The position numbers and the translations under genes are program-made. From contig CM060990.1 of the NCBI GenBank assembly GCA_030765065.1, forward strand, positions 278,221,341 through 278,285,340: a DNA stretch of 64,000 nucleotides, written 5' to 3'. The notes under the pieces are model-generated. The model did not search any database, was not told the DNA's origin, and saw nothing but the letters and a program-made list of their open reading frames with translations. Source of the stretch: Deroplatys truncata (lineage: Eukaryota > Arthropoda > Insecta > Mantodea > Mantidae). Shown here piece by piece: positions 11,716-51,745 of this stretch. Within the stretch, counting starts at the first letter, position 1. Every line of letters starts with the position of its first letter.

Positions 11716-11721
11716 AAACTA

Positions 11722-27338: not shown

Positions 27339-28020
27339 ATGCCGAAACGAAAGTGCATGTTCACTCCTGCGTTGCGAAAAAGGAAGGGGCTTAGCCTAAG
27401 ACTTAGGCATTGTAATGTATAGTGAATTTTAGTAAAATTTAAATTCAACTCCCGGCGATTATGCACAAACCAACAAATAGGTACTTAGTCTTTCTTAGAC
27501 TGATCTTCTATTGTAGGTAAAAATAACCAGTCCGATTCTGATGTTCGTTGTACCATTTGTAACACCAAGCTTTGAGTGTCCCATGGAGGGAACAACGACA
27601 CTGAGCAACATCTAATATCAAGAAAAAAACGCTGAAATTGCTGCAGCGTCGTCCAGAATAGTAACTTTATTCTTTCGGGCAAATTCAGCAACAGTTCGTG
27701 AATTGCACTTGATTGCAATTGAAAAAGTCTGGATATGTTACAGTGTCTTCAAATGCTTCTAATCACAGAGAGAAGAAGATTTTCCCTGTTATGGTTAGGC
27801 ACCTCTTATCGCTACAGGGTGGCCGTGTTCGAATTTTGGAAACTGAAATTGCGAAACAGCAGATATTGTTACCGGTTATCTGATTGATGTGCCCGCAAAA
27901 AACAATCTAGACAGTAAAATAATTTCATTCTGTGGTGATAATACCACCAGTAGCTCTGGTGGGGCAGCGCTAAGGGAACTAGAAACATTTTTCACAAACT
28001 TAAAATGGTATTAGGTCGTG
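27339..28020 (+). pseudogene. hAT transposase, N-terminal half, target of the 16.7-kb element
   Basis: ATG at 27339 (MPKRKCMFTPALRKRK). After a gap comes a BED-type finger (CTICNTKL, then HGGNNDTEQHL) at about 27540-27640. Then SNHREKKIFPVMVRHLLSL (27755) and CGDNTTSSSGGAALRELE (27930) represent the catalytic core, ending LKMVLGR at the insertion point. The protein resumes at 44749 as EILG..GYAAYIVHDN. In-frame stops (one inside the finger) and small frameshifts show it was already dead or died soon after. This broken gene fixes the boundary of the large element. Confidence 0.75.
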
Positions 28021-28049
28021 AGTAGGAAAAGGATGGGGGTCTGGGCCTC

Positions 28050-28440
28050 AAAGAAATACCGCCGACTCCACCCCCTTCCTTTGTGGTCTAACCTTTAAAA
28101 GCCGCCGAATCCACCCCCTTACTTTGTGGCCTTACCCTTAAAGCCGCCGAAGACGACCCCTCCTTTGTGGCCTCACATAATGTCGCCAGGCTCTGTGCCG
28201 CCGACTCCACCCCCTTCCTTTGTGGCCTTATCCTTAAAAGCCGCCGACTCCACCCCCTTGCTTTGTGGCCTTACCCTTAAAGCCGTCGAAGACGACCCCT
28301 CTTTGTGGCCTCACCTAATGTCGCCAGGCTCTGTGCCGCTGGCCACACCCCCTCCTTGTGGCCTTACACAGCTGATCACACCCTCCCCTCCACTTTGCGG
28401 TCTAACCCCGTACGCTGTCTACACCCTCCCCCCTTTGAGT
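28050..28440 (+). repeat. Subterminal array of CCACCCCCTT / CTTTGTGG boxes, left
   Basis: Eight copies of TTTGTGG/CTTGTGG-type boxes (about 28079, 28123, 28166, 28218, 28260, 28303, 28355, 28393) recur every 38-52 bp with CCGCCGACTCCACCCCCTT-type sequence between them. Mirrored at about 44320-44720. The apparent Pro-rich frame is a by-product of the repeat. Confidence 0.85.
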
Positions 28441-29884
28441 GTGCTGGTCTGAATGGCTCCCTGTAGAGTAGTGGGGGAACGCTGGCCACACCGCCTCTTA
28501 CGTTTGCTGTAGAGGAGTGTGGGTAATATGATAATGTTCCCGCACGCAGACCACTTCCAACCCTCTCTTATGGCCTGACCTATACTGCTAACGTCATGGC
28601 ATCGCGCCTCTGAAGGGCTGGACGCAAAAACTCGATCGAAGTATCCCCGCCGCATGTATCTTGATTAATGTAATTAAACGATGCTCCTCGATCGATGAAT
28701 ACGATTAAGTATGTTTGATTGATTAATGTAATTAAGTGTATATGAATTGACTCGGGCGCTCCCGGTCGACATCGTATATGTGTGCGTGGATGTTAAGGTG
28801 ATTATAACACGTGTATAATTATTACGACTAATAACATTTTGTTTAACTCCAAGGAAAGCGAGCATAAATCATTTGAAATGTCAGATAAGGAACTTCACGT
28901 TTCAAGATATTTTTCCAAGGTTTGTTTACACATAGGGGTGGCTCTGAAAAATAAATACGGTTAACATTATAGCTAAATATTACATATGTTATTAAACATA
29001 AATGATGCCGGTTAACATTATAGTTAAATATTACATGCGTTATTAAAAAATAAATAATGGTCTCGCTGATCGGTGAATACAATTAAATAGTTTTGATTGA
29101 TTGATTAATTAAGTGTATATGAATTGACTCACGCACCTTGGCGCCATCGTATATGTGTGCGTGGATGTTAAGGTGATTATTACACGTGTATAATTATTAC
29201 GACTAATAACATTTTGTTTAATTCTACTTTTGAGGGAAAATATATTTTGGGTTTATAAGAATATTACAACACTTAGATGAATCCATGGCTGAAAGGACAG
29301 AGTTCTCGTAACGAGGCGTTAACGCGTGATAATTTCGCTGAAAGCCCTTCCTCTATGCAGTGTCACACTCGAGTGCCGGTCGTCACACGGCAGCGAGCAA
29401 GGTAGCTGGCATCCCCTCCCTCCCTCGTGGTACAGATCGCCTCATGCAGCGCGCGCACTCTAGCCGAGAGAGCAGAAAGCTGGCTCTTCCGCTGAACGAC
29501 GAAGATGCCGGAAGTAGACATTTTAAAAGTTTAACGAATACACGGCGGCGGCCATGTTGACTCCAAGGAAAGCTAGCATAAATCATTTGAAATGTCCGAT
29601 AAGGAACTTCACGCTTCAAGATATTTTTCCAAGGTTTGTTTACACGTAAGTATGGCTCTGAAAAATAAATACGGTTAACATTATAGCTGGATATTACATA
29701 TGGTATTAAAAATAAATAAATACGGTTAACGTTATAGGTGAATATTACATGTAATTAATAAATAAAAAATGAACTAAATAAATAATGAAATATGCAGAGT
29801 ATCCTAAACAAGACACCTTCCTTGTTACTCTTTACCAAATAGCTGAAAAGGAGCACAAATATATCAAGACAGACGATAAAGCAC

Positions 29885-30395
29885 TCCACACACATAGATA
29901 TGGAGTTTAAAACAGCCATTTTCGATAAAGTACCCCACCCGCTCACGCATGCAAGCGCATAGGTAGAGTCTTTAAAACAGACGTTGCCGATAAAGTACCG
30001 CACTGCCAGCGCAAGCACGCGCGTAGGCATGGACTTTAAGCAGATGTTGACGATAAAGTACCGCACTGACAGCGCAAGCATACGCGTAGACATGGACATT
30101 AAAACAGGCATTTTCGATAAAGCATAGCATTGCCAGCGCAATCACTCGCATAGACATGGACTTTAAAACACACATTTTCGGTAAAAATAAGCATCCATCA
30201 CACACTCTCTCTGTCTCTCTCTCCCCTTTGCATGCATGGACTTTAAAACAGACATTATCGATAAAGCACCATAGCCCGCTCACACATGCAAGCGCATAGA
30301 TAGGGACTTTAAAACAGACATTGTCGGTAAAGCACCGCACTGTCGCCGCAAGCCTCCTCGTAGGCATGGACTTTAAAACAGTCATTGCCGATAAA
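29885..30395 (+). repeat. 64-bp tandem array in the left arm
   Basis: About eight units with core GACTTTAAAACAGACATT and CGATAAAG, spaced 61-65 bp (one at 81 bp, where a CTCTCTCTGTCTCTCTC stretch intervenes). Mirrored at about 41995-42510. Frames read through it in both arms because the array is open by chance in one frame. Confidence 0.85.
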
Positions 30396-32344
30396 AACAC
30401 TCCTCCTTCACGTAAACACTGTATCTCTCTGTTTCTCTCACACGCTCTCTCTCTACATTACGCCAACGATTTATATAACGGTTTACACACCCTTCAAAAA
30501 CATATTGTACAACGTTGAAGAGGGTAAACCCAAGCACTAGCTGACTTAATGGCCGGGATTCCTCAGAAATATAGCATCTAAAGGGTGTAAATGGATCTTC
30601 CCCAAGACACTGCAAAGTACATCGAGAGAAAACAAGGATAATTTATTTTCATTACTAACGCAAAAATTATATTATCGTCAAGAAAGCTTATTTGTTTATT
30701 CCATTTAAAAAGACTGGTGCTTCAGCCGCCATATCTAAAAATTATTTCATCCCCATCATTGGAATGTATACATATCATAATTCTATGAGAGATTACGTAT
30801 CTATTCACATTCGAGATGTCGAGGCTTCGAATCCCGGTTAGGTGATTTACTGTGCAAAGAAAGCCCTCCCATTAAGAGCTTTATAAGTGTTGGTGTAATA
30901 TTTTCCTACGGGGTGTGATGCATAGATCCTGTACGTAAACATTCGTTACATGTACAAGTATTATTCCCGTAACAAAAACGAAAATGATTCGTGTAATAGA
31001 CTCTGATTGTTTAGATATGTAGCGTCTAAAGTGGCATTGAATACAAGAGTGAAATCGAACTCTGAACTCAAAACACTAAATACACGGAATTTTTAAAAAA
31101 TGCATTATTCTCTTACTAAACATAGGACGAGGACGCTTTTAAACATCCCTCCCTTTGAAAGATATTTTGAATATTCCAGCAGAGAGATCGAACCATTTCG
31201 AAGACTTCAAATTATAAATTTCATATTTGTTTAAAAGCGTTTTCTTCACTGGGGATCTTCTAAAAATTCGACCTATTATTCGGTTGCACACCCCTTGCAA
31301 AAATAATTTGTATAACCTTTGAAGAGAGTTTACCTGGCTGGGGGTCTCGGAGATTCCTCAGGCGACCGGCTACCGTCATATAGCCCATTTAGGACAATGT
31401 GAAACCCTTCTTCATTAAGGAATCTATTGTGCTTTAAAATGATTTCTCTTCCCCTGAAAAACCCGTACGGCTCATACAGACGACTGTGTAAATATCATAA
31501 CTTAATTGTTTGGACGATATCGATAATTAAACTAATTTTTATGGAATGGTAAACTAATAAATATGATTTGTAGAGGGTGATATGAAAAGTATGGCATTTT
31601 AGAATTAAAATGGGAGAAAGAATTCAAATTAAGCGATCGAATGTATCTGATAGTTTTTCTTAATTGGTCTTTGAAGCTAGCCAGTTTTACGGTATACTTT
31701 ATAGATGAATGAAATATTTGATGAATGACAGTCTTATTTAACATGGGTAAAAGGTGTTAAAAGGATGTTTTGATAAAAATTACGTCATGGTAACGTGTGA
31801 GGTTTGAATTGGAGAGGTCACCGGTTCGATTCCAGGTGACCGCCATGTCTGACTTTAGAACCTGCATGAAGGTCTACGAATACATAGCCCGCCCATTAAC
31901 GATTTTTATAACCGTGGGTGTAACCTTACAAGGAAAATTATATCAACAGAAACAATACCTTCTTTTTCGTTATTTTCACTCTAAAATTATTATTAAATAA
32001 TACTTGTCAGACGGACACTTCAAATAAAATACTAGCGCGAATATTTATTTTTTGGGGTGATAATAAACATTGAATTTTAGCGTTTTATAAGCGAGGGTGT
32101 ATCCTTACAAGGAAAATTATATCAACAGAAACAATACCTTCTTTTTCGTTATTTTCACTCTTAAATTATTATTAAATAATACCTGTGAGGCTGGTGCTAG
32201 CCTCAGCGTCACCATTCACATCCATATGATGTTAGAATAATACTTTGATTTGCAGACGGACGCTTCAAATATACTACTGTAGCGAATATTTTGGTAATAC
32301 ATAGATACAGGCAATCCATCCCATTAACGGTCTTTATAAGCAAG

Positions 32345-32550
32345 GGTTCAGTCGGTAACGTCTGTGACTTGCATTCGAGGTCATGCGTTCGATCCCCAGC
32401 AGCTGACGCTCCTGATCCCTGGATTTCTCGGTTTCCCTGGTTGTTGGCGAATGCTGTGAAGGTTCATTACAATCGCGAAGTTTTTCCTCCACCCTGTTTC
32501 ACCGATATTCTCCTTTTACTCAGGCTTTCGTCTCTCCGGCTCTGACTGGT
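32345..32550 (+). repeat. SINE remnant inside the left arm
   Basis: GGTAACGTCTGTGACTTGC and a box B-like GCGTTCGATCCCC are followed by TTTCTCGGTTTCCCTGG and GGCGAATGCTGTGAAGGTTC. The same SINE family occurs at 37900-38062 and 47300-47440. The tRNA-like head is missing from the matching place in the right arm (near 40060), where only the body survives. Confidence 0.65.
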
Positions 32551-32855
32551 AATATTTACTACTGAACGTCGGCACTCATGCGATACAGATGCTTTATGAA
32601 TAAAGAAACGTATATGTATGTAGCTAAAACGACAGGGATGTCGTAGTGTTTAAAACAGAAATTTTTCGCAACCTCGAGGTAAAATACAGGGAACACCTCA
32701 AAACACGCATCCGGAGAAGCTAAATGTAAAGGTCCTGTATATAGAGTGCTATCCTTAAACAGACGCAGGAGGAAGGGAAAGCCATTCGAGTGTATGGTTT
32801 TTACTTCTCTTTTTGATGTGACAGCATATACAGCTAGTAATTCCACATTCTTAAA

Positions 32856-33035
32856 TGCCCACCCATTAACGATTTTTATAAGCGAGGGTGTAACCTTATA
32901 AGGAAAATTATATCAACAGAAACAATACCTCCTTTTTCGTTATTTTCACTCTAAGATTATTATTAAATAATACGTGTCAGACGGCCAATTCACATATAAT
33001 ACTAGTGCGAATATTTTTTGTGATAATAAAAATTG
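32856..33035 (+). repeat. Extra copy of an arm-internal AT-rich repeat
   Basis: CCCATTAACGATTTTTATAAGCG and TTATATCAACAGAAACAAT recur here as in 31885-32010 and 32080-32290 of the left arm and twice in the right arm (40240-40510). This copy lies just inside the core and is interrupted by the SINE at 33036. Confidence 0.8.
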
Positions 33036-33409
33036 GGCGGCGCCGTGGTCGAGTGGTTAGACCACTCGCCTCCCACCGAGGCGGCCCGGGTTCAATTCCA
33101 GGGACCTGCATGTGGGATTTGTGGTGCACGAAGCGGGGTCTGGGCGAATTTTCTCCGGGTTCTCCGGTTTCCCCCGCCATTCATTCCACCAACTGCTCCA
33201 TCATCACCTTTCCTTTCATCCACTTCACCAACTTTTCATTTCATCTACTTCCTTCATCCCATACTAGGCATCGGGCTGATCACCCATCCAGGATGCTCTG
33301 TCTGATCCATGAGTGTCTGGTCCTCGATGGGCCTCTGACCCCAGGCACCCGCTTGTATGTCCTGGGGGGTGTAAGTCCTACATAAGAGGAGGGTAAACAG
33401 ATAATGAAT
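33036..33409 (+). mobile_element. tRNA-derived SINE with 14-bp duplication
   Basis: A 374-bp insertion flanked by perfect GATAATAAAAATTG copies (33022-33035, 33410-33423). Box A-like GTGGTCGAGTGGTTAGAC (33044-33061) and box B-like GGGTTCAATTCC (33089-33100) mark the Pol III promoter. The perfect long duplication indicates LINE-machinery insertion after the giant element had formed. Confidence 0.9.
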
Positions 33410-33611
33410 GATAATAAAAATTGAATTTTAGTGATAATATAAATATAATATATATATTATTTTCTAGCGTCATATATAGAAGCATTTCCCGTACAGAGCG
33501 GTGGCGTGATTGAGGGATTTCCCAGCGTCATGTTTAAACATGTTTTATGAAATACCCCCTGTGCGTGACTAGCAGCCTCCCCCACGACGCTTTCTGTTTG
33601 ATGGGTGGAGT

Positions 33612-33717
33612 AGCCAATCAAAATCGCTGTATTATATACCATCACACCTCTCACCCCCTTCAGCCTTTATCGGGGGAAATTAAATAAAAGCAGGAGCTTC
33701 TCCGGCAATTTTCACTC
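33612..33717 (+). promoter_or_regulatory. Pol II promoter for the spliced core gene
   Basis: A CCAAT box (33614-33618) and TATATA (33633-33638) are followed by a better-placed TATA-like TAAATAAAAG (33681-33690), with an initiator-like TTCACTC at 33711-33717, 30 bp downstream. The start codon follows at 33789. Confidence 0.5.
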
Positions 33718-33788
33718 GTATTGTGAGAACACAGCGATCTAAGTACTCTTCAACCTTTACTTCACGTCGTGAACTTTCATCAAACATC

Positions 33789-34810
33789 ATGTCTGGTAAG
33801 TTGTAACACCAATTCATTTTCTTTGAAAAAGTTAACTTATTACTCAGTACATTTAACTTATAATTGCGTTCTTGTTTTCAATGTCGTACATTTATATGTA
33901 AATAGTTGAGCATTCTAAAAGCTAATAGCTAGACGTGTGAATTTTCTGAAATGCAAGGGGTTTAGTTAAGTATTCACTTTAGGCAGACTCATCCTACATT
34001 TAATAGTTAGTTGCGCGAATTCATTTTCTCAAAAAATGTGAACAGTTTAGTTAAGTATTCATCTTGTTGAGCAATTATTATTCCAGATGTTTAAATACAG
34101 GACTTCACAGAGTGAATTATATTCCTTTTAGAGAAAATACAATTATTTGAATACCTTATTAACGTTTTTGCTTTAGAATATTACAAAAAAGTCTGTTGCG
34201 CGAATCATTCGCTCTAATACAGTAAATGTTTACATTATATTAAAATATTTAAATCGAAAAATGCAGTACTTAGTGAACTTCATTAGTGAATCAGAACCTC
34301 AGTTATATTTACACATATTATCATTTTTATTATTATTATATTATACAGAAAAAGTTAATCATTTTGTACCTTTCAAATAAATGAAATTTTGTTATGTAAT
34401 ACGTTCTCTAATAAAGAATATGTTTTTCTGTTCCTAATGCAGAAAGTTTGACATCTCAACTTAACACATTGGCTAGGGGCAGTATTTTCCCGTCCGTTCA
34501 AAGACTACAAGATCTTCAGCCAGAGGAGCCTTATAATATAAAAGCCATAAGAAAAATTGATACGAGAAACGGTGCTAGAGTGTTTGCAGTTTTAGGTGAT
34601 AAGCAGGTTTTTCTCCCGACAAGACATTCAACCACAGCAAGGCAACAGTTGGAGGAAATGCCAGGGAAGTTCCAAATGGTATATCATGGATTAGTACCAG
34701 CCGGCAAGTTTAAGACATTTAAATTGTCTTTTCTTCCTGTTAAGGTTTGTAGAAATAATTCAGCTATCCTTTCAAAGTTTCATTTAGAGTTACAATCGTT
34801 GAGTTTATAA
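33789..34810 (+). CDS. Two-exon gene for a 124-residue possible OB-fold ssDNA-binding protein
   Basis: Exon 1 is 33789-33795 (seven bases, ATG-TCT-G) followed by the donor GTAAGT. The intron is 33796-34442, ending CTAATGCAG. Exon 2 is 34443-34810 with a TAA stop, giving 124 residues. The reading is clean. Key segments are LARGSIFPSV, a five-strand-like stretch YNIKAIRKIDTRNGARVFAV, and VFLPTRHS, then MVYHGLVPAGKF near the end. The pattern (hydrophobic strands, TRNGARV, VFLP.R) is like short proteins I recall in multiple copies in arthropod genomes and reminds me of OB-fold single-strand DNA binders. That function is inference. It is the only intact gene of the giant element, which suggests selection or recent origin. 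Confidence 0.65.
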
Positions 34811-34819
34811 ATTCACACT

Positions 34820-35135
34820 TCACTAGGATAACATTTGCCTAAAGTATACATCACTGTGTAAATGACGCCTAGGATGTAGTCTGGGTGAGGTCATGAAGAA
34901 AGAAGTTTAATAGTCTATTGAATGATTCTTTACCTCAAAGCAGATACCTACAAGTTGCAAATAATTTGCAGTAGGATAACATTTGTCTAAAGTATGCATC
35001 ACTGTATTAAAACAAATATGTGTAAATAACGTCTAGATTGTGGTCTGAGTGAGTTCGTGCAGAAAGAAGTTTAATACCCCTTTCAATGATTCTTCACCTC
35101 GAAGCATATACCTACAACAAGCTGCAAATAATGTA
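34820..35135 (+). repeat. Tandem duplication of about 150 bp after the spliced gene
   Basis: Two diverged units each hold AGGATAACATTTG.CTAAAGTAT, CATCACTGT, AGAAAGAAGTTTAATA and CAATGATTCTT/GAATGATTCTT. They probably lie in the 3' UTR or just downstream. Confidence 0.8.
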
Positions 35136-35488
35136 AAAGTTTGTTACAGGAATGCACAGATGAATGTAAATGAAGAGGAAGAACGAGATAGCTTAAAACA
35201 ACATAAACAGAAATGTGATAGGAACATTCTCAACAACTCCCAGTGATCTTATTCAATGAAGAGTTCCAGCACCGTGCAGCGTGGAACCTGCAAGGAAAAA
35301 CATTCGCGTGTGTAGAATATAGCAATAATACATAAATTATGTACTCATTATTACTGCTATACCTGCCAAGACCATTCATTTCATAAATAATTTCATAATT
35401 GTTTAAAGGAGTATGCAATATCTTAAAGCATTGATGCTACATGAAATCTAAACAAAACAATTATTGAACTATTACTGAAAGAAACTTG

Positions 35489-35565
35489 AATAAATGGGAA
35501 TCTAGAGGCCAGAACCATCTTAATATTTGATTGTGTGATATGATGTGTATAATAAGATTAATAAA
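35489..35565 (+). terminator. Candidate polyadenylation signals of the spliced gene
   Basis: AATAAA occurs at 35489-35494 and again at 35560-35565. Either could serve the upstream gene. The assignment is based on position only. Confidence 0.35.
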
Positions 35566-35854
35566 AAATGAGGACTATGTAACATAAACAGCATTTATTT
35601 TTATAAACATTATCCTATTACATTCCTTCACAAAAACCCATACATATTTCCTAAAGACAAAGGTGATAGTCTAGACCTTCTAAACACTCAGTTATATAAT
35701 TATATACATCACAGAGAAAGAGACCTGCATTATCCGTAAAAAATTAAACATCTCAACAATGTCTGGATGATGTATTTTATAAATACAAGTTCTTGATATT
35801 TCAAAGTTCCTGTTAACCATGGTCGAAATTGATTAACACAATTTCTCGATCCTG

Positions 35855-36247
35855 TCATGCTATTACTTTAGAAGCTTTCAGCTTACTTATAATTTCCTCA
35901 ATCTCTTGTGTGTGACTATTATTACCAGCGTCCCTCGATGCAATTAGTAACCTCAATATATTTACGTCTATTCGGATTTTCAAGCGTAGATATCACTGAA
36001 TCATCATCATATGAAGACTTCATATTCTCGCGACTTCCGCTGTATCCAGATTCCTCACCAGCAGTAGACTCGAGTGAAGGATAGAGGCCCGATCCGGTAT
36101 ATCTTGCTCTATGAAGCTTAAATCTTGACAAAGAACGGTTCCTAAAATCCCATCGCATATACAGCATTTAATAACACGTTTTCCTTCATGTGCAATGTAT
36201 GAGTTTCTCATCTTTGGTTGCACAGATTTTCTCCGGCAATAGCTCAT
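35855..36247 (-). CDS. Possible second core gene, frame-shifted or spliced
   Basis: On the minus strand, ATG at 36247 opens MSYCRRKSVQPKMRNSYIAH, with CCICDG after it. A second frame (36167-35922) has GYSGSRENMKSSYDDDSVIS, an acidic Ser/Tyr-rich segment. A third gives a helical, charged end SHTQEIEEIISKLKASK before TGA at 35855-35857. An acceptor-like TTTCTTTTACAG precedes the ATG, and a TATATA sequence lies near 36340. The three open pieces in one direction suggest a small spliced gene or one broken by two frameshifts. No family is recognised. It faces the spliced plus-strand gene, tail to tail. Confidence 0.35.
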
Positions 36248-36639
36248 GCTAAAACTGTAAAAGAAATTAAATGAATACGTAAATGCTAACGCTCGAAGGA
36301 ATTAAAAGCGAATGAATGAATTCATAACACGCAACTATGTATATATCTCACATGAGCACAGCGGAGGGAACCTCGATCTAGGCATAGCAGCGGGAAAGGA
36401 TACTCTCCTGAAACATTAGTCATCTAGACAGCAACTGTTCATGGAGCCGGTAGACGCCAGGTTGGATGGAACAGACTCCAAGTTCAAATCTTTAAAGGGT
36501 AGGCCCACCCCGCCTTTTGCCTGTCATGTCTCCTGAACCGTCCTAACAGTGTAACATTACGTTACAACACCACGTAACCAGAAGATTGCGAGTGCGAGCA
36601 TGGGAAAAGGCTGTTCTCTGGAAACACTCGTCATCCGCA

Positions 36640-37510
36640 CAACGGATTGTCCCTAACATTTCCAGATCTCGGACCGTTCAACATCGTGACGTGTCTCTGT
36701 CATCTACATTTCGACGAACTGTTACCTCCTGAATTAAAGTTTGGTGGTCTGTATAGATCTGTAGAACTTGCATTGCGCTGTGTGTCCCTAACGCTTCCAG
36801 CTCCTGCATCGTTCCAGCTAGTTGCAGGTCTCTACCATCTACATTTCGACGAACTCTTATCATCTGAAGTAAAATTTGGTGGTTGGTTTAGATCTGTAAA
36901 GCTTGCATTGCGCTGGATGTACCTAACACCCCCAGCTCCTGAATCGTTCCAACATGTTGCGCGTCTCTACCATCTAAATTTCGGTGAACTGTTACCCTCT
37001 GAAGTAAAGTTTGGCGTTCTGTTTAGATATGTACAGCTTGCATTGCGCTGTGTGTCCCTAACGTTTCCAGATCTCGGAACGTTCCAGCTAGTTGCGCGCT
37101 TCTACCATCTTCAGGTCAACGATCTGTTACCTTCTAAAGTAAAGTTTGGTGGTTGGTTTAGATCTGTACAGTTTGCATTGCGCTGGATGTCCCTAACGTT
37201 TCCAGATCTTGGATCGTCCCAGCTAGTTGCGCGTCTCTACCATCTACATTTCGACGAACTGTTACCTTCTAAAGTAAAGTTTGGTGGCTGTACAGTTTGC
37301 ATTGCGCTGGATGTCCCTAACACCCCCCCAGCTCCTGAATCGTTCCAGCTAGTTGCGCGTCTCTACCATCTACATTTCGACGAACTGTTACCTTCTGAAG
37401 TAAAGTTTAGCGGTCTGTTTAGATCTGTATAGGTTGCATTGCATTGGGCGTCCCTAACGTTTCCAGATCTAGGAACGTTCCAACTCGTGCCGCGTCTCTG
37501 TCACCTGTGT
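36640..37510 (+). repeat. 132-bp tandem array, seven units, open in frame
   Basis: Units begin near 36648, 36786, 36919, 37053, 37185, 37311 and 37450 with GTCCCTAACGTTTCCAGATC-like sequence and contain CATCTACATTTCGACGAACT and TTGCATTGCGCTG. Because the period is mostly a multiple of three, the plus strand is open for 261 codons (36647-37432), and parts of the minus strand are open too. There is no start context or splice evidence, so I treat it as a minisatellite with a chance frame. Confidence 0.8.
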
Positions 37511-37534
37511 GATGATGATCAGGGGCCTTCTGAA

Positions 37535-37646
37535 TGTTGTTACATAGCGTGACGGCGTTGTTACATAGCGTGACGATGTTGTTACATAGCGTGACGACGT
37601 TGTTACGTAGCGTGACGACGTTGATACGTAGCGTGACGACGTGACA
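37535..37646 (+). repeat. 21-bp tandem array, about five units
   Basis: Units of GTTGTTACATAGCGTGACG plus two bases, with later units carrying TACGTAG. Confidence 0.92.
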
Positions 37647-37899
37647 GTAAAAGGGTAGGGGGGCAGGGCCTCTATCTTTCACGGTTAAAAATTCCCTGGT
37701 GGCAGTTGACGCAATCCATGGCTCCTCTCGAGGACTACAGACTTACACATCTCCTGAGAGGTCCAGGATTCGGGGCCACACTCATTCAATGGATGAAAGT
37801 TACAGAGAGCATAAGCTCTGCTTATGCCGAGAGTCCCTCTCCGCTAGTTTCAACCCTGAAACAACCAAGAGGATAAAAAAAGTAAAATGAGGATGGAGG

Positions 37900-38062
37900 T
37901 GAAACGATGAGAGGAACAATTCAGAGGTGGAACGAGCCTTCACAGCATTCGTCTAGTGAGCGGAAAACCTTGAAGAAAAAAACCTCTGGAAATAAGGGGG
38001 GTGTGGGTTACTGGGATTGAACCCTCGATCCGAATACAAGTCACAAACTTACCACCTGAGCC
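37900..38062 (-). repeat. SINE fragment (tRNA-like head), minus strand
   Basis: The minus strand carries ATGGCTCAGGTGGTAAG (box A-like) and GAGGGTTCAATCCC (box B-like). The body follows, with GGTTTTCCGC and GACGAATGCTGTGAAGGCTC. Confidence 0.7.
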
Positions 38063-38104
38063 ATTCTACTCGATTAGTTAGTGTGTTACACACAAGTGAC
38101 CTTA

Positions 38105-38300
38105 GCTGTGTGTCGTCGTCCGTGGTGTAGTTGTTACCACGCTAGCATCTAGTTCCCAAGGTCGCGGGTTCAAGCCCGACGGAGGGCGATGGATTTTTTG
38201 GGGCGTAGAAATCCTTAGCATGGCTTCCTTCGGAAGGGAAGTAAAGCCGGTGGTCCCGTGTCGTAGATTTACGCCACGTAAAAGAACCTCAAGCCTGATA
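38105..38300 (+). repeat. tRNA-derived SINE, plus strand
   Basis: The head GTCGTCCGTGGTGTAGTTGT folds roughly like a tRNA (acceptor GTCGTCC pairs with GGGCGAT) and has box B-like GCGGGTTCAAGCCC. The body has GGGAAGTAAAGCCGGTGGTC and GTAAAAGAACCTC. The 3' border is not clear. It is a SINE rather than a working tRNA gene, because the sequence continues into a conserved SINE body. Confidence 0.65.
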
Positions 38301-38419
38301 GAGGCCTCTGAGCAAAATTACCAGTCTTTCACGCCCAATATAGATTTCTCAAGCAAAACCGTGAACAAATTAGTTGATTGTCGGATACATGCATACGAAG
38401 TCGCGAACTCGCTATTGTA

Positions 38420-39044
38420 AGTCTATGTAAGAAGCATTATCTGGCAAATGTTGCATGTCATGCGTTCCTTTAAGAGAATCCTCGATAAAATTATCTTAAC
38501 TTTAAGAGCGGCCTAAATTGCCAACAATTTTTTTCCGAAATGTAAGTTTGGAACCTCTATTGAATCTAAACAAGCGAATAGCATACATAGCGTGTCTTAA
38601 AGAGAAAGTTCCTGTCTAAGACAGTGTTTAGATGTGATGTGTTCTTGTTATGGTTGTAAATAAATATCTACATTAAAACCTGTCATTCCAATCTGATTAT
38701 GAGTTCTGATAAGCACATGCCCGTATGTCTTCCTGCATGTTCGAGTATTTAGAGAGTCGGTTAGAGGTGTTTATGAGTGATTTTATGTATTCATAGGTCT
38801 TCGTATAGCTTCGCGTGCTTAAAGTGTGTGAGCAAACATTGCAACGATCATGTATTGTTCGGCGGTGTTCGGACGTCTCCGTACAGGTTCGAATGCTTAG
38901 AGTAAGTGCAAAGTATTGTAAACATGTATGTATTGTTCAGGTATAATCACGCAGATTCGCGTGCTTAACTCGTGAGTTTGTCAACCGAGGAAGGGACAAG
39001 TATCCTTGTGAGCAGGCATTCACCATGCCCAACGAAACCTAGAA
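38420..39044. other. Core sequence without recognisable gene
   Basis: AT-rich, with partly repeated phrases (TTCGTATAGCTTCGCGTGCTTAA-like, about 38810, 38890 and 38955) but no coding signal. Confidence 0.5.
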
Positions 39045-39612
39045 GCAAAAAAAGATGTGAATGAAATGAAAGATGCAAATTATATAGAATGAAAGGAAAT
39101 CGTGGTAGAATACGTCACTCAGACATTCGCCGCAGACCAGGGAAAACCACGAAAAATCTCAGGTCTGAGCGAGTGGCCGACGGTAATCCAAACAGAGGGC
39201 CTTAGAAGCACGTGTTAAAGATGCGAATGAAATAAAATGAAAACGCGGCAGCATACGCCACTCAGGCATTCGCCTGCAGACAAGGGAAAACCACGAAAAA
39301 GCTCCGGTCTGAGGGAGTGGTCGACGGTAATCCAAACAGCTGCCTAAGAAGCATGTGTTAAAGATGCGAATAAAATAAAATGAAAACGTGGTAGCATACG
39401 CCACTCAGACATTCGCCTACAGACCAGGGAAAACCACGAAAAATCTCAGGTCTGAGCGAGTGGTCGACGGTAATCGAAATAGAGATCCTAGAAGCATGCA
39501 TAAAAGATGCAAATTATACAGAATGAAAAGAAATCGCCCTAGCATACACCACTCAGGCATTCGCATGCGGACCAGAGAAAACCGCGAAAAAAATGCGAGA
39601 CCAGAGTACGCG
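39045..39612 (+). repeat. Array of about 145-bp units built from a SINE body
   Basis: Four units carry CAGGGAAAACCACGAAAAA-type sequence at about 39136, 39279, 39423 and 39571, with CACTCAGGCATTCGCC and GTGGTCGACGGTAATC. Read on the other strand, this is the TTTTTCGTGGTTTTCCC...GGCGAATGCC body of the SINE family seen elsewhere in the window. Confidence 0.85.
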
Positions 39613-39619
39613 GTCGATA

Positions 39620-42600
39620 TGTTTAAGAATGTGGAATTACAAGCTGTATATTCTGTCACATCAAAAAGAGAAGTAAAAACCATACACTCGAATGGCTTTC
39701 CCTTCCTCCTGCGTCTGTTTAAGGATAGCACTCGATATACAGAACCTTTACACTTAACTTCTCGGGATGCGTGTTTTGAGGTGTTCCCTGTATTTTACCT
39801 CGAGGTTGCGAAAAATTTCTGTTTTAAACACTACGACATCCCTATCCTTTTAGCTACATACATATACGTTTCTTTGTTCATAAAGCATCTGTATCACATG
39901 AGTGCCGACGTTCAGTAGTAAATATTACCAGTCAGAGCCGGAGAGACGAAAGCCTGAGTAAAAGGAGAATATCGGTGCAACGGGGTGGAGGAAAAACTTC
40001 GCGGTTGTAATGAACCTTCACAGCATTCGCCTAGCAGCCAGGGAAACCGAGAAATCCAGGGTTATAAAGACCGCTTATAAAGACCGTTAATGGGATGACT
40101 TGCATTGTATCTATGTATTACCAAAATATTCGCTACAGTAGTATATTTGAAGCGTCCGTCTGCAATCAAAGTAATATTTTAACATGATATGAATGTGAAT
40201 GGCAACGCTGTGGCTAGCACCAATCTCACAGGTATTATTTAATAATAATTCTAGAGAGAAAATAACGAACAAGAAGGTATTGTTTCTGTTGATATACTTT
40301 TCCTTGTAAGGTTACACCCTCGCTTATAAAACGCTATAATTCAAAGTTTTTTATCACCCAAAAACATAAATATTCGCGCTAGTATTATATTTCAAGTGTC
40401 CGTCTGACACGTATTATGTAATAATAATTTTAGTGTGAAAATTATGAAAAAGAAGGTATTGTTTCTGTTGATATAATTTTCCTTGTAAGGTTACACCCTC
40501 GCTTATAAGAAATCGTTAATAGGCGGCCTATGTATTCGTTGACCTTCATGCAGGTTGTAAAGTCGGGCATGGCGGTCACCTGGAATCGAACCGGTGACCT
40601 CTCCAATTCAAACCTCACACGTTACCACGAAGTAATTTTTATCAAAACAGCCTTTAAACACCTTTTACCTATGTTAAATAAGACTTTCATTAATCAAATA
40701 TTTCATTCATTTACAAAGCAGACCGTAAAAAACTGGCTAGCTTCAAAGACCAATTAAGAAAATCTATCAGATACATTCGATCGCTTAATTTAAATTCTTT
40801 CTCCCATTTTAATTCTAAAATACCATACTCTGCATATCACCCTCTACAAATCATATCTATTTGTTTAGCATTCCATAAAAATTAGTTTAATTGCCGATAT
40901 CATGTAAACAATTAAGTTATGATAGTTACACAGTCATCTGTATGAGCTGTACGGGTTTTCCAGGGGAAGAGAAATCATTTTAAAGCACAATAGATTCCTT
41001 AATGAAGAAGGGTTTCACATTGTCCTAAATGGGCTATATGACGGTAGCCGGTCGCCTGAGGAATCTCCGAGACCCCCAGCCAGGTAAACTCTCTTCAAAG
41101 GTTATACAAATTATTTTTGCAAGGGGTGTGCAACCGAATAACACGTCGAATTTTTCGAAGATCCTCCGGTGAAGAAAACGCTTCTAAACAAATATGAAAT
41201 TTATAATTTGAAGTCTTCGTAATGGTTCGATCACTCTACTGGAACACTCAAAATACCTTTCGAAGGGAGGGGTGTTTAAAAAGGTTCTCGTCCTATGTTT
41301 ACTAAGAGTATAATGCATGTTTTAAAATTCCGCGTATTTATTGGTTTGAGTTCAGTGTTCGATTTCCCTCTGGTATTCAATACCACTTTAGACGCTACAT
41401 ATCTAAACAATGAAAGTCTATTACACGAATCATTTTCGTTTTTGTTACGGGAATAATAACTGCCCATGTAACGAATGTTTACGTACAGGATATATACATC
41501 ATACCCTGTAGGAAAATGTTACACCAACACTTATAAAGCTCTTAATGGGAGGGTTTTCTTTGCACAGTAAATCACCTAACTGGGATTCGAAGCCGCGACC
41601 TCTCGAATGTGAATAGACAAGTAATGTCTCATAGAATTATGATATGTGTTCATTCAAATGATGGGGATGAAATAATTTTTAAATATGGCGGCTGAAACAC
41701 CAGTCTTTTTAAATGGAATAAACAAATAAGCTTTCTTGACGATAATATAATTTTTGCGTTAGTATTGAAAATAAATTATCCTTGTTTTCTCTCGATGTAC
41801 CTTCTAGTGTCTTGGGGAAGATCCATTTACACTCTTTAGATGCTATATTTCTGAGGAATCCCGGCCATTAAGTCAGCTAGTGCTTGGGTTTACCCTCTTC
41901 AACCTTGTACAATATATTTTTCAAGGGTGTGTAAACCGCTATATAAATCATTGCCGTAATGTAGAGAGAGTGCGTGAGAGAGAGAGACAGTGTTTACGTG
42001 AAGGAACTTTTTTATCGGCAATGACTGTTTTAAAGTCCATGCCTACGAGGATGCTTGTGGCTACAGTGCGGAACTTTACCGACAATGTCTGTTTTAAAGT
42101 CCCTATCTATGCGCTTATATGTGTGAGCGGGCTATGGTACTTTATCGATAATGTCTGTTTTAAAGTCCATGCATGCAAAGGGGAGAGAGACAGAGAGAGT
42201 GTGTGATGGATGCTTATGTTTACCGAAAATGTGTGTTTTAAAGTCCATGTCTATGCGAGTGATTGCGCTAGCAATGCTATACTTTATCGAAAATGCCTGT
42301 TTTAAAGTCCATGTCTACGCGTATGCTTGCGCTGGCAGTGCGGTACTTATCGTCAACGTCTGTTTTAAAGTCCATGCCTACTCGCGTGCTTGCGTTGGCA
42401 GTGCGGTAATTGATCGTCAAAGTCTGTTTTAAAGACCCTACCTATGCTCTTCCATGCGTGAGCGGGTGGGGTACTTTATCGAAAATGGCTGCTTTAAAGT
42501 CCATATCTATGTGTGTGGAGTGCTTTATCGTCTGTCTTGATATATTTCTGCTCCTTTTCAGCTATTTGGTAAAGAGTAACAAGGAATGTGTCTTGTTTAG

Positions 42601-44748
42601 GATACTTTACCTTTTTCATTATTTATTTAGTTCATTTTTATTTATTAATAAAATGTAATATTCACCTATAATGTTAACCGTATTCATTTATTTTTAATAA
42701 CATATGTAATATTCAGCTATAATGTTAACCGTATTTATTTTTCAGAACCATTCCTACTTGTAAACGTACCTTGGAAAAAATATCTTGAAGCGTGAAGTTC
42801 CTTATCGGACATTTCAAATGATTTATGCTAGCTTTCCTTGGAGTCAACATGGCCGCCGCCGTTCATTCGTTAAACTTTTAAAATGTCTACTTCCGGCATC
42901 TTCGTCGTTCAGCGGAAGGGCCAGCTTTCCGCTCTCTCGGCTAGAGTGCGCGCGCTGCAGGAGGCGATCTGTACTACTAGGGAGGGAGGGAGGGAGGGGA
43001 TGCCAGCTACCTTGCTCGCTGCCATGTGAGGACCGGCACTCGAGTGTGACACTGCATAGAGGAAGGATTGCGCGCGGGCTTTCAGCGAAGTTATCACGCG
43101 TTAACGCCTCGTTACGAGAACTCTGTCCTTTCAGCCATGGATTCATCTAAGTGTTGTAATATTCTTATAAACCCAAAATATATTTTCCCTCAAAAGTAGA
43201 ATTAAACAAAATGTTATTAGTCGTAATAATTATGCACGTGTAATAATCACGTTAACACCCACGCACACATATACGATTCCGACCAGGTGCGCGAGTCAAT
43301 TCATATACACTTAATTACATTAATCAATCAAAAATATTTAATTGTATTCACCGATAAGCGAGACCATTATTTATTTTTTAATAACGCATGTAATATTTAA
43401 CTATAATGTTAACCGCCATCATTTATTTTTAATAACATATGTAATATTCAGCTATAATGTTAACCTATTTATTTTTCAGAGCCACCCCTATGTGTAAACA
43501 AACCTTGGAAAAATATCTTGAAGCGTGAAGTTCCTTATCGGACATTTCAAATGATTTATGCTAGCTTTCCTTGGGGTCAACATGGCCGCCGTGCATTCGT
43601 TAAACTTTTAAAATGTCTACTTCCGGCATCTTCGTCGCTCAGCGGAAGAGCCAGCTTTCCGCTCTCTCGGCTACAGTGCGCTCGCTGCAGGAGGCGATCT
43701 GTACCACGAGGGAGGGAGGGGATGCCAGCTACCTTGCTCGCTGCTATTTTAGGTCCGGCACTCGAGTGTGACACTGCATAGTTGAAGGATTGCGCGCGGG
43801 CTTTCAGCGAAATTATCACACGTTAACGTCTCGTTACGGCAACTCTGTCCTTTCAGCTATGGATTCATCTAAGTGTTGTAATATTCTTATAAACCCAAAA
43901 TATATTTTCCCTCAAAAGTAGAATTAAACAAACTGTTATTAGTCGTAATAATTATACACGTGTAATAATCACCTTAACACCCACGCACACATATACGATG
44001 TCGACCTGGTGCGCGCGAGTCAATTCATATACACTTAATTACATTAATCAATCAAAAATACTTAATCGTATTCATCGATCGAGGAGCATCGTTTAATTAC
44101 ATTAATCAAGATACATGCGGCGGGGATACTTCGATCGAGTGTTTGCGTCCAGCCCTTCAGAGGCGCGATGCCATGACGTTAGCAGTATAGTTCAGGCCGC
44201 AAGCGAGGGATGGTAGTGGTCTGCTTTCGGGAACAATACCATATTACCCACACTTCTCTACAGCAAACATAGGAGGGGGTGTGGCCAGCGCTCCTCCACT
44301 ACTCTACAGTGAGCCATTCAGACCAGCACACTCAAAGAGGGGAGGGTGTAGACAGCGTACGGGGTTAGACCACAAAGGGGAGGGGGTGTGGTCAGCTGTG
44401 TAAGGCCACAAAGAGGGGGTGTGGCCAGCGGCACAGAGCCTGGCGACATTAGGTGAGGCCACAAAGGATGAGTCGTCTTCGGCGGATTTAAGGTAAGGCC
44501 ACAAAGCAAGGGGGGTGGAATCGGCGGCTTTTGAGGGTAAGGCCACAAAGGAAGGGGGTGGAGCCGGCGGCACAGAGCCTGGCGACATTAGGTGAGGCCA
44601 CAAAGGAGGGGTCGTCTTCGACGGCTTTAAGGGTAAGGCCACAAAGCAAGGGGGTGGATTCGGCGGCTTTTAAGGGTAAGACCACAAAGGAAGGGGGTGG
44701 AGTCGGCGGCAATTCTTTGAGGCCCAGAACCCCCATCCTTTTCCTACT
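39620..44748 (-). repeat. Right terminal inverted repeat of the giant element
   Basis: The mirror of 28021-32855. It holds the AT-rich segments with TTATATCAACAGAAACAAT-type repeats (40240-40510), the 64-bp array (41995-42510), two related blocks at about 42660-43380 and 43380-44100 (each with a GC-richer part containing AACATGGCCGCCG and CTTTCCGCTCTCTCGG), and the CTTTGTGG-box array near the end. The second block keeps the 325-bp segment missing from the left arm. Confidence 0.9.
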
Positions 44749-44754
44749 GTCGTG

Positions 44755-45540
44755 AAATCCTGGGTTGGATATGCAGCATATATAGTGCATGACAATTAAG
44801 ACTGCTGCAGATTGTTTACCTATTAATGCAGAACTGGTGTTCACAAAATTTACTACCATTTTTACACAAAAACCGCGAGAATATAATTACTAAGAAATGT
44901 CTACAGCTTTGTTGAGCTTGAGTACAGGAAATTGTTAGGTTACAGTAACACTAAATGTTTAGCATTAATACCAGCACTTGGAAGAGTTATTGCACTTTTT
45001 GAAGGACTGATATCCTATTTTCTTAGTCAGAAAAATTTGCAGTGATAATGAAATATATTTTTTTTGAAAATGTGCTTTACATGAATTACAAGATGAAGGC
45101 GAGATGAAGGTGGAGTATTTCCAGAAAGTATCAAATGGTTCCTGTGATTCATTTACTCAATAATTAAGAGTCTGGACGGACGGATATGAACTGTGTGAGA
45201 AATTTGTATGTACCTTGCTTAACAATATCAAAATGGAATGCTGTTGAAATACGTATACCAATAATCAGAAATGTATCCGTTGAATCAAATGTTGATTTTC
45301 AGTGAACTTGTTTATGTTAAGCAGTTTGCTATTGCAGACAAAATTACGCAGTGGAATAATGAGGAAGCAGTCTATCTGGGAATGGGTAGAAATGTTTCAG
45401 TATTTCTTCCCTCAAAGTTATCATTCAATACATTTTCTAAGGTTGTAGAAGTTGGATTATCACTGTAAGGTACTAATGTGCCTATAGAGAGAGGTTTTGC
45501 AAGCATGAACAAAACGTGAATATCTTTAAAAAAACTGAAT
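44755..45540 (+). pseudogene. hAT transposase, C-terminal half, beyond the giant element
   Basis: The reading resumes as GYAAYIVHDN and KTAADCLPINAELVFTKF (44770-44860), then LLHFLKD-like pieces. It ends with FSKVVEVGLSL, then GTNVPIERGFASMNK (45430-45510), the hAT dimerisation region. Stops and frame changes are frequent. It completes the gene begun at 27339, and SINE-like repeats follow at 45725. Confidence 0.7.
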
Positions 45541-48479: not shown

Positions 48480-49800
48480 TTCAAGTTTGAAATTTATCGA
48501 AGATTGGAGTGGATGATTCAACTGTGAGACGAATTAAAACGAAAATTGAATGTAGTATGAAACTAACCCCACAAAGAATGAAGATGTGGGTAGAAATAAA
48601 TTTTCACACCAAAAGCAGTATGTTGCTTAAAAAAGATTTCTGAAAGAAATAGGTTTGCCAGTGCAAAATAAATTAAATTCAAGTTTCTTGAAGATAGTGG
48701 GATTGCTTCATCTGAAAGAACTGTTAGGTCGACCTTTCAGAAACAAATTTAAAAGCCCACAGGCATACCAAGGAGCCCAAATTAACGGCTTCTGTGGCTG
48801 CAAAACGATAAAGGAACACAAGGACAAAGAGTTGAACTTATGGAAATTGGTAAATATGATAATCTTCATTATAAAAAAATCCTCTATTGAATCGAACTTC
48901 ACATTTGAAATGCATTATCATGAACCAAAGTTCACACTTGAAACAAATTTACATAGACTTTTTTTTGTTTCAAGTTGGTTTTAGTGATGAAAGCCCTTTT
49001 GAAATTCTGGCAAACAGAACTGATCCAGTAGAACGTGGTTTCCGGGTTTATAGGCCGTGGTGCAGTCGATGAGATTTCACCTGACGTTTTGCTCCAGCTC
49101 CGTCGGGCACCTTCAGAGTAAGCAAATCCTGGCTGGTTTACAATTACACTAGTTGTAAACCGGCAGAAGTCACTGCAACTACACTCTTGTTGTAAATCAG
49201 CCAGGAGTCACTTACTCTGAAGATGCCCGACGGAGTTAGGGGCGAAACGTCAGGTGAAGTCTCAGCGATTGGACCATGGCCTAGAAGCCCGGAAACTACA
49301 TTCCACTAGATTAACGCTGGCCGTGAAAACCTAAGCACGTACAAACAAAGCTAAGTTTGTCGAAGGCATTCTGGTGAAAGGTATCAATCAGATTGTGTTG
49401 TGTAGACTGTAAAACATCCCATGAAAGTCGTGGTAAGGTCAGTCATCATCGGCAAAAGCACTGGACATTCTAATATTTTCCAAAGGACAATGCGGCAGGA
49501 TCAGTATAAGGGAATGTTGAGAAGTAGGCTGCTGCCTCAAACAGACTAATTCCCAAATGGAGAACCATTTGTTTTTATGCAAGATGGAGCAAGATGTCAC
49601 ACTGCAAAATCAATGATAGCGTTTTTGAGAGAGAGCAGATCATGCCTTTGTTGCCCTGGCCTGGAAATTCACCGGATATAAACCGCATTGAAAATGCCTG
49701 GAAGCTAGTGAAGGAAAAAGTGACAAAGAAAACGATTACTACGAAAACTCAATTTATTGAAAAGATAATAGAAGTCTAGAATCATCATTCACATATACAA
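48480..49800 (+). pseudogene. Tc1 transposase, decayed
   Basis: The N-terminal helix-turn-helix reading has VDDSTVRR (48500-48530). The first catalytic block reads FSDESPFEIL (about 48983), after which the MITE interrupts. The rest reads VKHPMKVVVRS, GTMRQDQYKGMLRS-like, GEPFVFMQDGARCHTAKSM and PGNSPDINRIENAWKLVK (second and third catalytic blocks), to about 49780. Several frameshifts and stops. The order and length match Tc1-family enzymes of about 340 residues. Confidence 0.78.
49031..49306. mobile_element. Palindromic MITE in the Tc1 transposase
   Basis: Arms of about 95 bp mirror each other (TTTCCGGGTTTATAGGCC / TTTCCGGGCTTCTAGGCC; TTTCACCTGACGTTTTGC / CTTCACCTGACGTTTCGC; CTCCGTCGGGCACCTTCAG / CTCCGTCGGGCATCTTCAG). 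A small loop holds a further hairpin around TTGTAAACCGGCAG. The ends look like TA-flanked. I recall similar palindromic units as common in arthropods. Confidence 0.8.
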
Positions 49801-50416: not shown

Positions 50417-51745
50417 CGAGGGCGGATCGAAAAGTAACGCAGAATAATTTTTTTCTGCCTTGGTATTGCAGCTGGAATGTTGCAATTTCACACAGATATA
50501 GCTTGAAGTTTTCATTACAGAGAGTATTTTCTGTTTCATGTGCAGCTCTAGCGAGAGAAGCGTGAACTACGCAACAAAGATGGCGCACATGTTACTGTCC
50601 TCCACGTGTGAAGAACAGAGGGGTGTGGTTCGATATTTGTGGGCCAAAAGGTATAAACCAAGTGACATTCACAGGTACATGCGTGGCGTGTATGGGGATG
50701 ATTGTATGGACCATAGCAATATCTCCAGGTTGTGTGCATTCTCCCTAGAGGGCCGTGTGAACTCTAGTAATTCGCCACGCTCCGGGAGGCCGGTAACAGC
50801 TGCAACCCCGCAGAATGTCAGAGGCATTGAGGCGGCAATTTTGAACGACCGGTGTGTGCAACTGCGAACCTTATCGCAACAGTTCAACATTTCCTATGGT
50901 GCAGTGTGCGATATTTTTCATGACACGTTGAAATTCCCTAAAGTTATAGCTCGCTGAGTGCCTAAGAAACTGACAGACAACCACAAGGGCCAACGAATGA
51001 TGAGCTTGGATCACCTAACGCGCTACACCGCAGAAGGGCATGACTTTCTGAAAGGAATCGTCACTAGTGATGAGCCGTGGACATACTACTACACGCCCGA
51101 AACCAAGCAGGCAAGTATGGAGTGGAAACATGCTGGTTTCCCAGTGAAGAAAAAATTCAAAGATACTCACTTTGCAAGGAAAGTGCTTGTGACGATGTTC
51201 TGGGATATGCATGGTGTTGTATTGGTGGACTTTGCTGAACACGGGACCACTGTGAATGCTGCAGCTGTATGAAAACTTTGGTGAAGCTGCATCGTACGCT
51301 TCGTGACAAACGCCACAACATGAATGCTGACGATGCCAATATTCTTCATGACAATGCTCGCCCCCATGTTGCTGCTGCTGTTCGTCAGAAAATCACCAAA
51401 TTTGGTTGAGAGGTGATCCAGCATCCACCATACAGTCCGGACCTTGCACCGTCGGACTTTCATCTGTTTGGATCCATGAAGAAATTCCTGGCCGGCCAAC
51501 GCTTGCGACAGACGCGGAAGTGAAATCAGCAGTCCACAGATGGATATAATCCAAGGAAACGGACTTCTACGAACAGGGCATATTCAAACTGGTATCACGA
51601 TAGGAGAAATGTGTTGAGAAACTTGGTGACTATGTCGAAAAGTAGGTAAAAGGAGTAAGTTCATTTGTGATGGTTTTTTTGTTGTTTTAACTATTAAACT
51701 TTTTTGTAAAAAAGCTATTATGCATTACTTTTTTATTCGCCATTT
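50417..51745 (+). mobile_element. mariner transposon
   Basis: 1,329 bp flanked by TA (50415-50416, 51746-51747). The ends are CGAGGGCGGATCGAAAAGTAA at 50417 (one base over the core repeat) and AAATGGCGAATAAAAAAGTA read inward from 51745. It holds one decayed transposase gene. Confidence 0.85.
50581..51650 (+). pseudogene. mariner transposase, decayed
   Basis: ATG at 50581 (MAHMLLSSTCEEQRGVVR). An N-terminal HTH region is followed by a second HTH. An in-frame TGA at 50955-50957 interrupts, then the reading continues through VTSDEPWTYYYTPETKQ (first catalytic block). A frameshift near 51270 precedes HDNARPHVAAAVRQK and HPPYSPDLAPSDFHLFG, the second and third catalytic blocks of the DD34D enzyme. 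A further TGA splits these. All motifs are in the right order for a protein of about 350 residues. Confidence 0.85.

Follow-up and report, generated by a model that had tools for sequence, protein, structure and literature searches.

A gene-less Polinton derivative with long inverted arms, probably a mirror-image defective genome of an adintovirus-type element

Polintons, also called Mavericks, are close to the root from which many DNA viruses of eukaryotes arose, and PLA2 is a trait of the adintoviruses. According to the part of PMC8097293 used here, the vertebrate Polinton/Maverick set has 6-bp duplications, (AGT)2//(ACT)2 as its commonest end motif, terminal repeats of 46-1,447 bp (mean 402 bp) and a mean total length of 16.9 kb. 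The insect examples of adintoviruses in the consulted part of PMC8363768 carry polB and integrase, a capsid gene and an FtsK-type ATPase, and that part mentions no mirror-image or non-autonomous form. The element considered here lies at positions 28021-44748 of a stretch of Deroplatys truncata contig CM060990.1, the whole 64 kb of which was analyzed and is called the window. Like the vertebrate Mavericks as so described, it has a 6-bp duplication, AGT-type ends (AGTAGG, AGTAGT and similar across copies), a total of 16.7 kb and relatives with polB, integrase, ATPase and capsid genes; the gene set of these relatives also matches the polB, integrase, capsid and FtsK-type ATPase of the adintoviruses. 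Unlike the Mavericks of that set, it has repeats of 4.8-5.1 kb, which reach 10.6 kb in one relative (E12), and the window is without a viral gene. The best reading, held at a probability of roughly 0.7, is that the element is a mirror-image (snap-back or copy-back) defective genome of an adintovirus-type Polinton/Maverick that arose by replication and was integrated.

Copy-back or snap-back defective genomes occur in negative-strand RNA viruses, and the snap-back genomes of adeno-associated virus and the mirror-end variants of adenovirus are of this kind. The likeness is that one end is doubled in inverse, the other half is lost and the full virus helps replication, whereas here the copies are integrated in an animal-type genome, have target-site duplications and, in one lineage, form a repeat family. 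The Foldback and Galileo transposons of Drosophila have very long inverted arms, internal tandem repeats and a variable arm length; they belong to other transposase families, make 7-9-bp duplications and, unlike the window family, are not known to have viral relatives. Teratorn, a herpesvirus plus piggyBac of 41-182 kb with 18-bp terminal repeats, differs from the window family in its enzymes, as far as the part of PMC6431247 drawn on here describes it. Among the open-access papers listed in literature searches no report of a mirror-image or non-autonomous Polinton was found, a weak negative, and the part of PMC3671162 considered holds no passage matching non-autonomous, long-armed or copy-back Polintons.

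The element begins AGTAGGAAAAGGATGGGGG at 28021 and closes CCCCCATCCTTTTCCTACT at 44748. Its termini are AGTAG...CTACT (terminal letters AGTAGGAAAAGG...CCTTTTCCTACT), and such 5'-AG(T) inverted termini are a Polinton/Maverick trait. A left arm (28021-32855, plus strand, 4,835 bp) and an inverted right arm (39622-44748, minus strand, 5,127 bp) enclose a core of 6.77 kb. Self-BLAST of the window resolved the inverted repeat into the pieces 28021-28849/44748-43921, 28843-32341/43580-40073 and 32417-32855/40061-39622. When the arms were aligned globally they were 94.3% identical (273 mismatches in 4,749 aligned bases, or 5.7%, with 25 indel events), which is far beyond chance, and their length falls outside the Polinton/Maverick range of about 0.05-1.5 kb. 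The terminal part of the left arm (28021-28849, plus strand) is the sole stretch common also to the right ends of two gene-bearing copies, E9 (829-bp arm) and E11 (728-bp arm); together with its counterpart in the right arm (43921-44748, minus strand) it is the ancestral terminal inverted repeat.

The duplicated target site GTCGTG was read directly at 28015-28020 and 44749-44754 (plus strand), and paralogous empty sites exist. The flanks (27721-28020 and 44755-45054, both plus strand) belong to one decayed repeat, which we take to be hAT-like from known hAT motifs; a 53-aa piece of it had no Pfam match at E <= 1. For the empty-site test, 300 bp of each flank were joined with one GTCGTG into a 600-bp query, and a match was counted as crossing when it contained query positions 285-315. 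The junction was crossed unbroken in 31 of 45 genome matches, all elsewhere in the genome and at 71-84% identity, while 2 of the others were the window itself and 12 were partial matches short of the junction. At the window locus the query was split into 1-301 and 295-600, the overlap being the 6-bp duplication and one chance base. The test was thus passed, and it supports insertion with a 6-bp duplication independently. The limits, inverted ends, GTCGTG flanks, 4.8- and 5.1-kb arms and 6.8-kb core given in a preliminary description of this DNA were confirmed by the sequence and by self-BLAST. That description had also joined a hAT coding frame across one GTCGTG as LKMVLGR followed by EILG; a joining frame does exist, but the better one is another, ...ELETFFTNLKWY*VVKSWVGYAAYIVHDN, with one stop.

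The whole genome (4.29 Gb, 818 contigs) was searched with the first 430 bases of the element, which gave 54 matches among the best 40 of 1,046 candidates. Fifteen copies were read at both ends: the window element (E1), E2-E11 from the terminus search, E12-E14 from a search with the capsid gene and E15 from a search with the arm interior. Because E2-E11 were picked as end matches in opposite orientation, the share of copies with duplications is not that of a random sample. The terminus search also returned unpaired, partial and clustered matches, at least 8 single ends among them. The preliminary description had named varying ends, a lack of duplications at other loci and inverted pairs without the shared termini as observations contrary to its proposal. 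What was found instead is that the ends are shared between copies in the same genome and that the 6-bp duplication is perfect in 12 of the 15 copies: GTCGTG in the window, TCTACA in E2, GTCACA in E3, CCACTG in E4, GATATA in E5, GATATT in E6, AATGAG in E9, CACCAC in E10, CGTGTC in E12, CATGCT in E13, GGTGTC in E14 and AATGTG in E15. Five of the 6 bases agree in E8 (CGAGTC/CGGGTC), and E7 and E11 have none. With even base use, a 6-bp duplication is expected by chance once in 4,096 per copy. The other copies that were read likewise have AGT-type ends. One end is altered by a point change or by the loss of 3 bp in E6 (which lost its left AGT), E7, E9, E11 and E15, and there are inner changes elsewhere. 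Among the inverted pairs read none was without these termini; AGT-type ends and duplications are also seen in E12-E14, for which the capsid gene and not the ends had served as the query.

In the arm-interior search 34 of the 40 main matches fell on contig C16 (707 Mb, about 16% of the genome), a share that the choice of candidates may bias, and further inverted pairs were seen at C16:339.8M, 434.6M and 255.0M. Capsid matches were spread more widely, with 23 of the best 100 of 13,523 candidates on C16. A sex chromosome and a local burst are both possibilities for the concentration of the arm interior.

Longer copies with polB and integrase between the same ends, for which the preliminary description had suggested a search, were found as E9 (C16:15234915-15257601, 22.7 kb, terminal repeats of 0.83 kb) and E11 (C16:479679048-479699626, 20.6 kb, terminal repeats of 0.73 kb). 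Between the same kind of ends both carry polB, integrase, an A32-type ATPase, a double-jelly-roll capsid and PLA2. The Pfam family DNA_pol_B_2 was matched at 2.7e-6 in E9, above the curated cut-off, and at 7.5e-6 in E11 (25.5 bits against a cut-off of 25.8). Pieces of E11 open reading frames (ORFs) matched rve (3.3e-8) and Pox_A32 (1.1e-5), and its capsid, split in two frames, matched the double-jelly-roll capsid at 3.9e-62 and 4e-26; E7 matched the capsid at 1.6e-102 and PLA2 at 4.2e-12. Among the 20 ORF pieces compared with Pfam in these scans several had no match, including an ORF that is presumably penton-like. On their gene content E9 and E11 are full-layout but decayed Polintons of adintovirus type.

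At least 100 open capsid genes are present in the genome. In the search with the E7 capsid protein, the best 100 of 13,523 candidates were all open over at least 416 residues and many had identical scores; in the integrase search the best 150 of 10,116 candidates were scored. The Polinton expansion in this genome is apparently large and recent.

The left half of the window element is collinear with the left ~5.3 kb of E9 and E11 (window 28021-34155, 74-92% over pieces), and the matches follow the order of the terminal repeat, about 4 kb without recognized genes and then the segment 33409-34155. Within the arm this collinearity runs up to about 32190. The window has no more than the terminal ~0.8 kb in common with their right ends. 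Its right arm is therefore the left end copied in inverse, in the place that the capsid-side right end takes in E9 and E11. Thus, the window arms are long because one virus end was copied inversely onto the other. When 13 viral ORFs (7 of them taken from E9 or E11) were searched singly, all 13 matched both E9 and E11 and none had a match at E<=1e-3 in the window. With 0 of 13, the Polinton set of polB, rve integrase, ATPase and capsid was not encountered there, and the window element is for this reason a non-autonomous derivative and not a full Polinton.

Core segments are shared with the window by E2, E3, E4, E5, E6, E8 and E10, which lie at different sites with different duplications, so that the gutted form must have moved with enzymes supplied in trans. 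None of the 13 viral queries was found in these seven copies except for pieces in E8. The order of segments in E4, E5 and E10 is that of the window, with gaps, the core of E10 being reversed; E8 is similar. E3 is a 7.2-kb deletion form, and E4 has grown to 39 kb through later insertions with, by eye, long retroelement-like ORFs. In E2 and E6 the arms are about 7 kb, lengthened by the segment 37653-40061, and core segment C1 is lost. The left-type arms of E8 measure 4.6 kb, and its core still contains fragments of integrase (83-88%) and one from the 3' part of polB (90%); by this content it is the missing link between gene-bearing and gene-less forms. The window element is almost certainly a gene-less Polinton derivative with a 6-bp duplication. 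Of the two origins that had been offered for it, a non-autonomous derivative mobilized by a Polinton-like integrase is right as regards the derivative, with ends of the same kind around polB and integrase in E9 and E11, the integrase being a probable mover; a distinct giant element with arms ten times longer than usual is not supported, the length of the arms being due to the inverse copying of one virus end onto the other.

Doubling of one end in inverse with loss of the opposite end was seen for the left end in the window and for the right end in E7, E12 and E13. Three inverted pairs, E12, E13 and E14, whose two members lie within 25 kb, were obtained from the best 100 of 13,523 capsid matches, and each has a perfect 6-bp duplication. 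In E12 (C9, 21.3 kb) the right half of the virus forms a near-perfect palindrome. Each arm is about 10.6 kb long and holds the right end, capsid, penton-like ORF, PLA2, ATPase, integrase and 3' polB; the matched stretches are 2,982 bp (99.93% identical) and 7,600 bp (99.91%). The centre of E12 is a hairpin whose 18-nt loop is bounded by AAAA and TTTT. In E13 the related strand has ...TTGTAAAA-18 nt-TTTT and continues without a turn, and therefore a 3' TTTT could have paired back to AAAA and been extended in E12. E13 (16.4 kb, on C10) consists of a 5.4-kb loop between 5.5-kb arms, which match over 3,250 bp at 99.72% and over 2,249 bp at 100%. In E14 (28.7 kb, on C16) the arms reach at least 7.1 kb, with matches of 410 bp at 100% and 6,600 bp at 99.92%. 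The right-end form E7, whose arms measure 4.4 kb, is older. The copies suggest that mirror-image genomes form repeatedly, insert and multiply in this genome. Another inverted pair, 5 kb apart, appeared on C72 in the integrase search.

The reading as a snap-back defective genome starts from the shared ends with their duplications, the gene-bearing relatives, the left-end collinearity, the shared core and the young mirror copies. The linear Polinton genome would replicate from its ends by a protein-primed polymerase, as is held for its relatives and may be supposed here. The growing strand would switch to its own or the opposite strand and run back to the starting end, giving a product with one viral end present twice, inverted, and the other half of the genome lost. 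Since each end would keep a replication origin and an integrase site, enzymes acting in trans could both copy the defective genome and insert it, with duplication of 6 bp; the identity of the element that supplies these enzymes is one that we infer. In the window family the left end would have been duplicated, and the remaining core, with polB and integrase, would have been lost stepwise afterwards. A wider and more tentative proposal, whose odds fall a little short of even, is that Polintons here continually spawn mirror-image defective genomes from either end, that these insert in the manner of the parent, and that some of the lineages, that of the window among them, become self-standing DNA satellites multiplying at the expense of their parent; the two arms would then be reset to identity in each round.

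Several observations weigh against the snap-back origin. In the left-type family the founding junction, where a turn would be seen, is no longer preserved, the switch point of E13 has an overlap of only 1-2 nt, and the centre of E14 (L045, 2.1 kb read) holds a further capsid-side stretch in plus orientation and hence no simple turn. The PLA2/penton-like block of E7 is reversed relative to E9 and E11, so that a further rearrangement is needed and E7 is not a plain single snap-back; the absence of duplications from E7 and E11 belongs here too. The segment 32190-32855 is present in both window arms and is represented in E9 and E11 by short ~50-bp matches only, which, like the growth of the E2 and E6 arms, points to later conversion between arms. 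Moreover, the divergence along the arms is uneven in E2, E4, E5, E6 and E7 (p from 6e-8 to 2e-27), with only part of the arms compared in E4, E5 and E10 and with repeats near the ends that may add alignment noise; the effect is milder or not significant in the window copy (0.011), E8 (0.04), E10 (0.1), E9 (0.1) and E11 (0.26). This unevenness shows that conversion acts on the arms, and conversion alone might therefore have made them.

The possibility was considered that the arms arose after integration. Break-induced replication or gene conversion, starting at the opposite terminal repeat and proceeding inward, would have mended a break in an ordinary integrated Polinton, turning one end into the other in inverse, with the outer terminus and duplication kept. 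The 0.7-0.8-kb repeats of E9 and E11 would supply the homology needed, E4 and E6 have difference-free tracts of about 0.9 kb beside 300-bp bins at 6-10%, and the E2 and E6 arms grew from ~5 to ~7 kb by absorbing core sequence. However, the near-perfect 21-kb palindrome of E12 has at its centre a short hairpin within one strand, its ends matching over 4 nt, which is what the folding back of a single strand would give, mirror forms recur at separate sites with a duplication of their own each, and the window family spread after its arms had formed. In-place conversion is the strongest rival, but an unlikely one overall: it fits the arm growth of E2 and E6 and explains the E12 hairpin less well.

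Phylogenetic trees bear on how the arms evolve. In the tree of a 1.17-kb arm-interior region, the left and right arms were sisters in all 6 elements with both (support 0.978-1.0); E3, E4, E9 and E11 were represented there by a single arm. In the terminal-region tree the two ends were not sisters in E7, E10 and E11 (L020, L021, L027, L028, L029, L031), and support was weak (0.696) for E5; this topology suggests exchange between elements. The two ends of E7, E10 and E11 look as if they came from different Polinton lineages. In each of the three young copies the two arms differ hardly at all, and conversion seems to act after the arms have formed. Since the arms convert, no insertion age was derived from their divergence.

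An assembly or amplification artefact, in which molecules fold back into chimeras, is very improbable. Perfect palindromes such as E12 are a known shape of this artefact, but the arms of the window, E2, E4, E6-E8 and E10 differ by 2-6% overall (0.7% in one E5 stretch) and are therefore not laboratory copies. A fold-back chimera would also mirror the flank, whereas the flanks of E12-E14 start right after the 6-bp duplication and differ on each side. The least probable explanation is that the element has no relation to Polintons and belongs to another superfamily whose members are long-armed and make duplications of ~6 bp (IS3EU/GingerRoot or Foldback-like): 5-kb arms with internal tandem repeats do resemble the Foldback type, but this reading is already refuted by the same kind of ends flanking Polinton genes in E9 and E11 and by the collinear left ends. 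IS3EU and GingerRoot also make 6-bp duplications, but in the part of PMC10045372 consulted the ends are TA..TA in IS3EU and mostly TA..TA in GingerRoot, against AGTAG..CTACT here.

The segments that make up the core of the window element are given on the plus strand except where stated. An extra copy (32856-33035) of the ~180-bp unit at 31887-32072 is followed by a secondary insertion (33036-33408) that by eye resembles a short interspersed element; such units stand directly before the 33409 segment in E9 and E11, and the insertion is absent from E4, E5 and E10, where the flanking matches overlap by 13-15 bp. Core segment C1 spans 33409-35780, of which 33409-34155 has its counterpart (81-89%) in the subterminal part of the left end in E9 and E11. 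It contains a 120-aa ORF (34448-34810), for which a protein search gave 8 candidates, none at E <= 0.001. The ORF was dropped as a kept gene and is listed as a decayed relic: its copies in E4, E5 and E10 have 1-2 gap columns, and their differences at codon positions 1/2/3 number 10/8/7, 10/6/4 and 8/8/6, respectively. Scraps of the region 3' of the capsid gene lie at 35291-35640 on the minus strand (35291-35492 at 66-67%, about 35593-35640 at 85-89%), and a scrap of the region beside the integrase gene lies at 35854-35955 (L025 4821-4920, 86%). Six copies of a 135-bp tandem repeat occupy 36693-37499, a region common to other family copies. A 284-aa open frame (36578-37432) runs through this repeat and had only sub-threshold Pfam matches; a similar 162-aa frame is present in E2 (L009 8314-8799). 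Core segment C3 (37653-39621), with a 143-bp tandem repeat, is now part of both arms in E2 and E6.

Other features were noted in passing. The left arm of E5 carries an insert of ~4 kb with a 347-aa ORF (L016 5000-6040), which had no Pfam match at E<=0.01. Elsewhere in the window, ORFs for non-long-terminal-repeat reverse transcriptases lie at 4196-4708 and 11704-13110 (RVT_1, 4.5e-20 and 5.5e-14), a small hairpin element of 289 bp that matches its own reverse complement (78%) lies at 49023-49311, and a trace of a Mos1-type helix-turn-helix, below the Pfam cut-off, lies at 50502-50957.

To our knowledge, direct evidence for free, protein-primed linear Polinton replication is scarce. If a snap-back origin is true, an integrated copy with such a hairpin would preserve a fossil trace of replication through a single strand, and mirror-image copies would offer a route to giant foldback-like transposons whose arms are unexplained. 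The question is also raised whether the many Polintons of this genome are kept in check by their defective copies. We know of no earlier transposon family born from defective interfering genomes, and the satellites, if they are such, would be an integrated and heritable counterpart of defective interfering particles.

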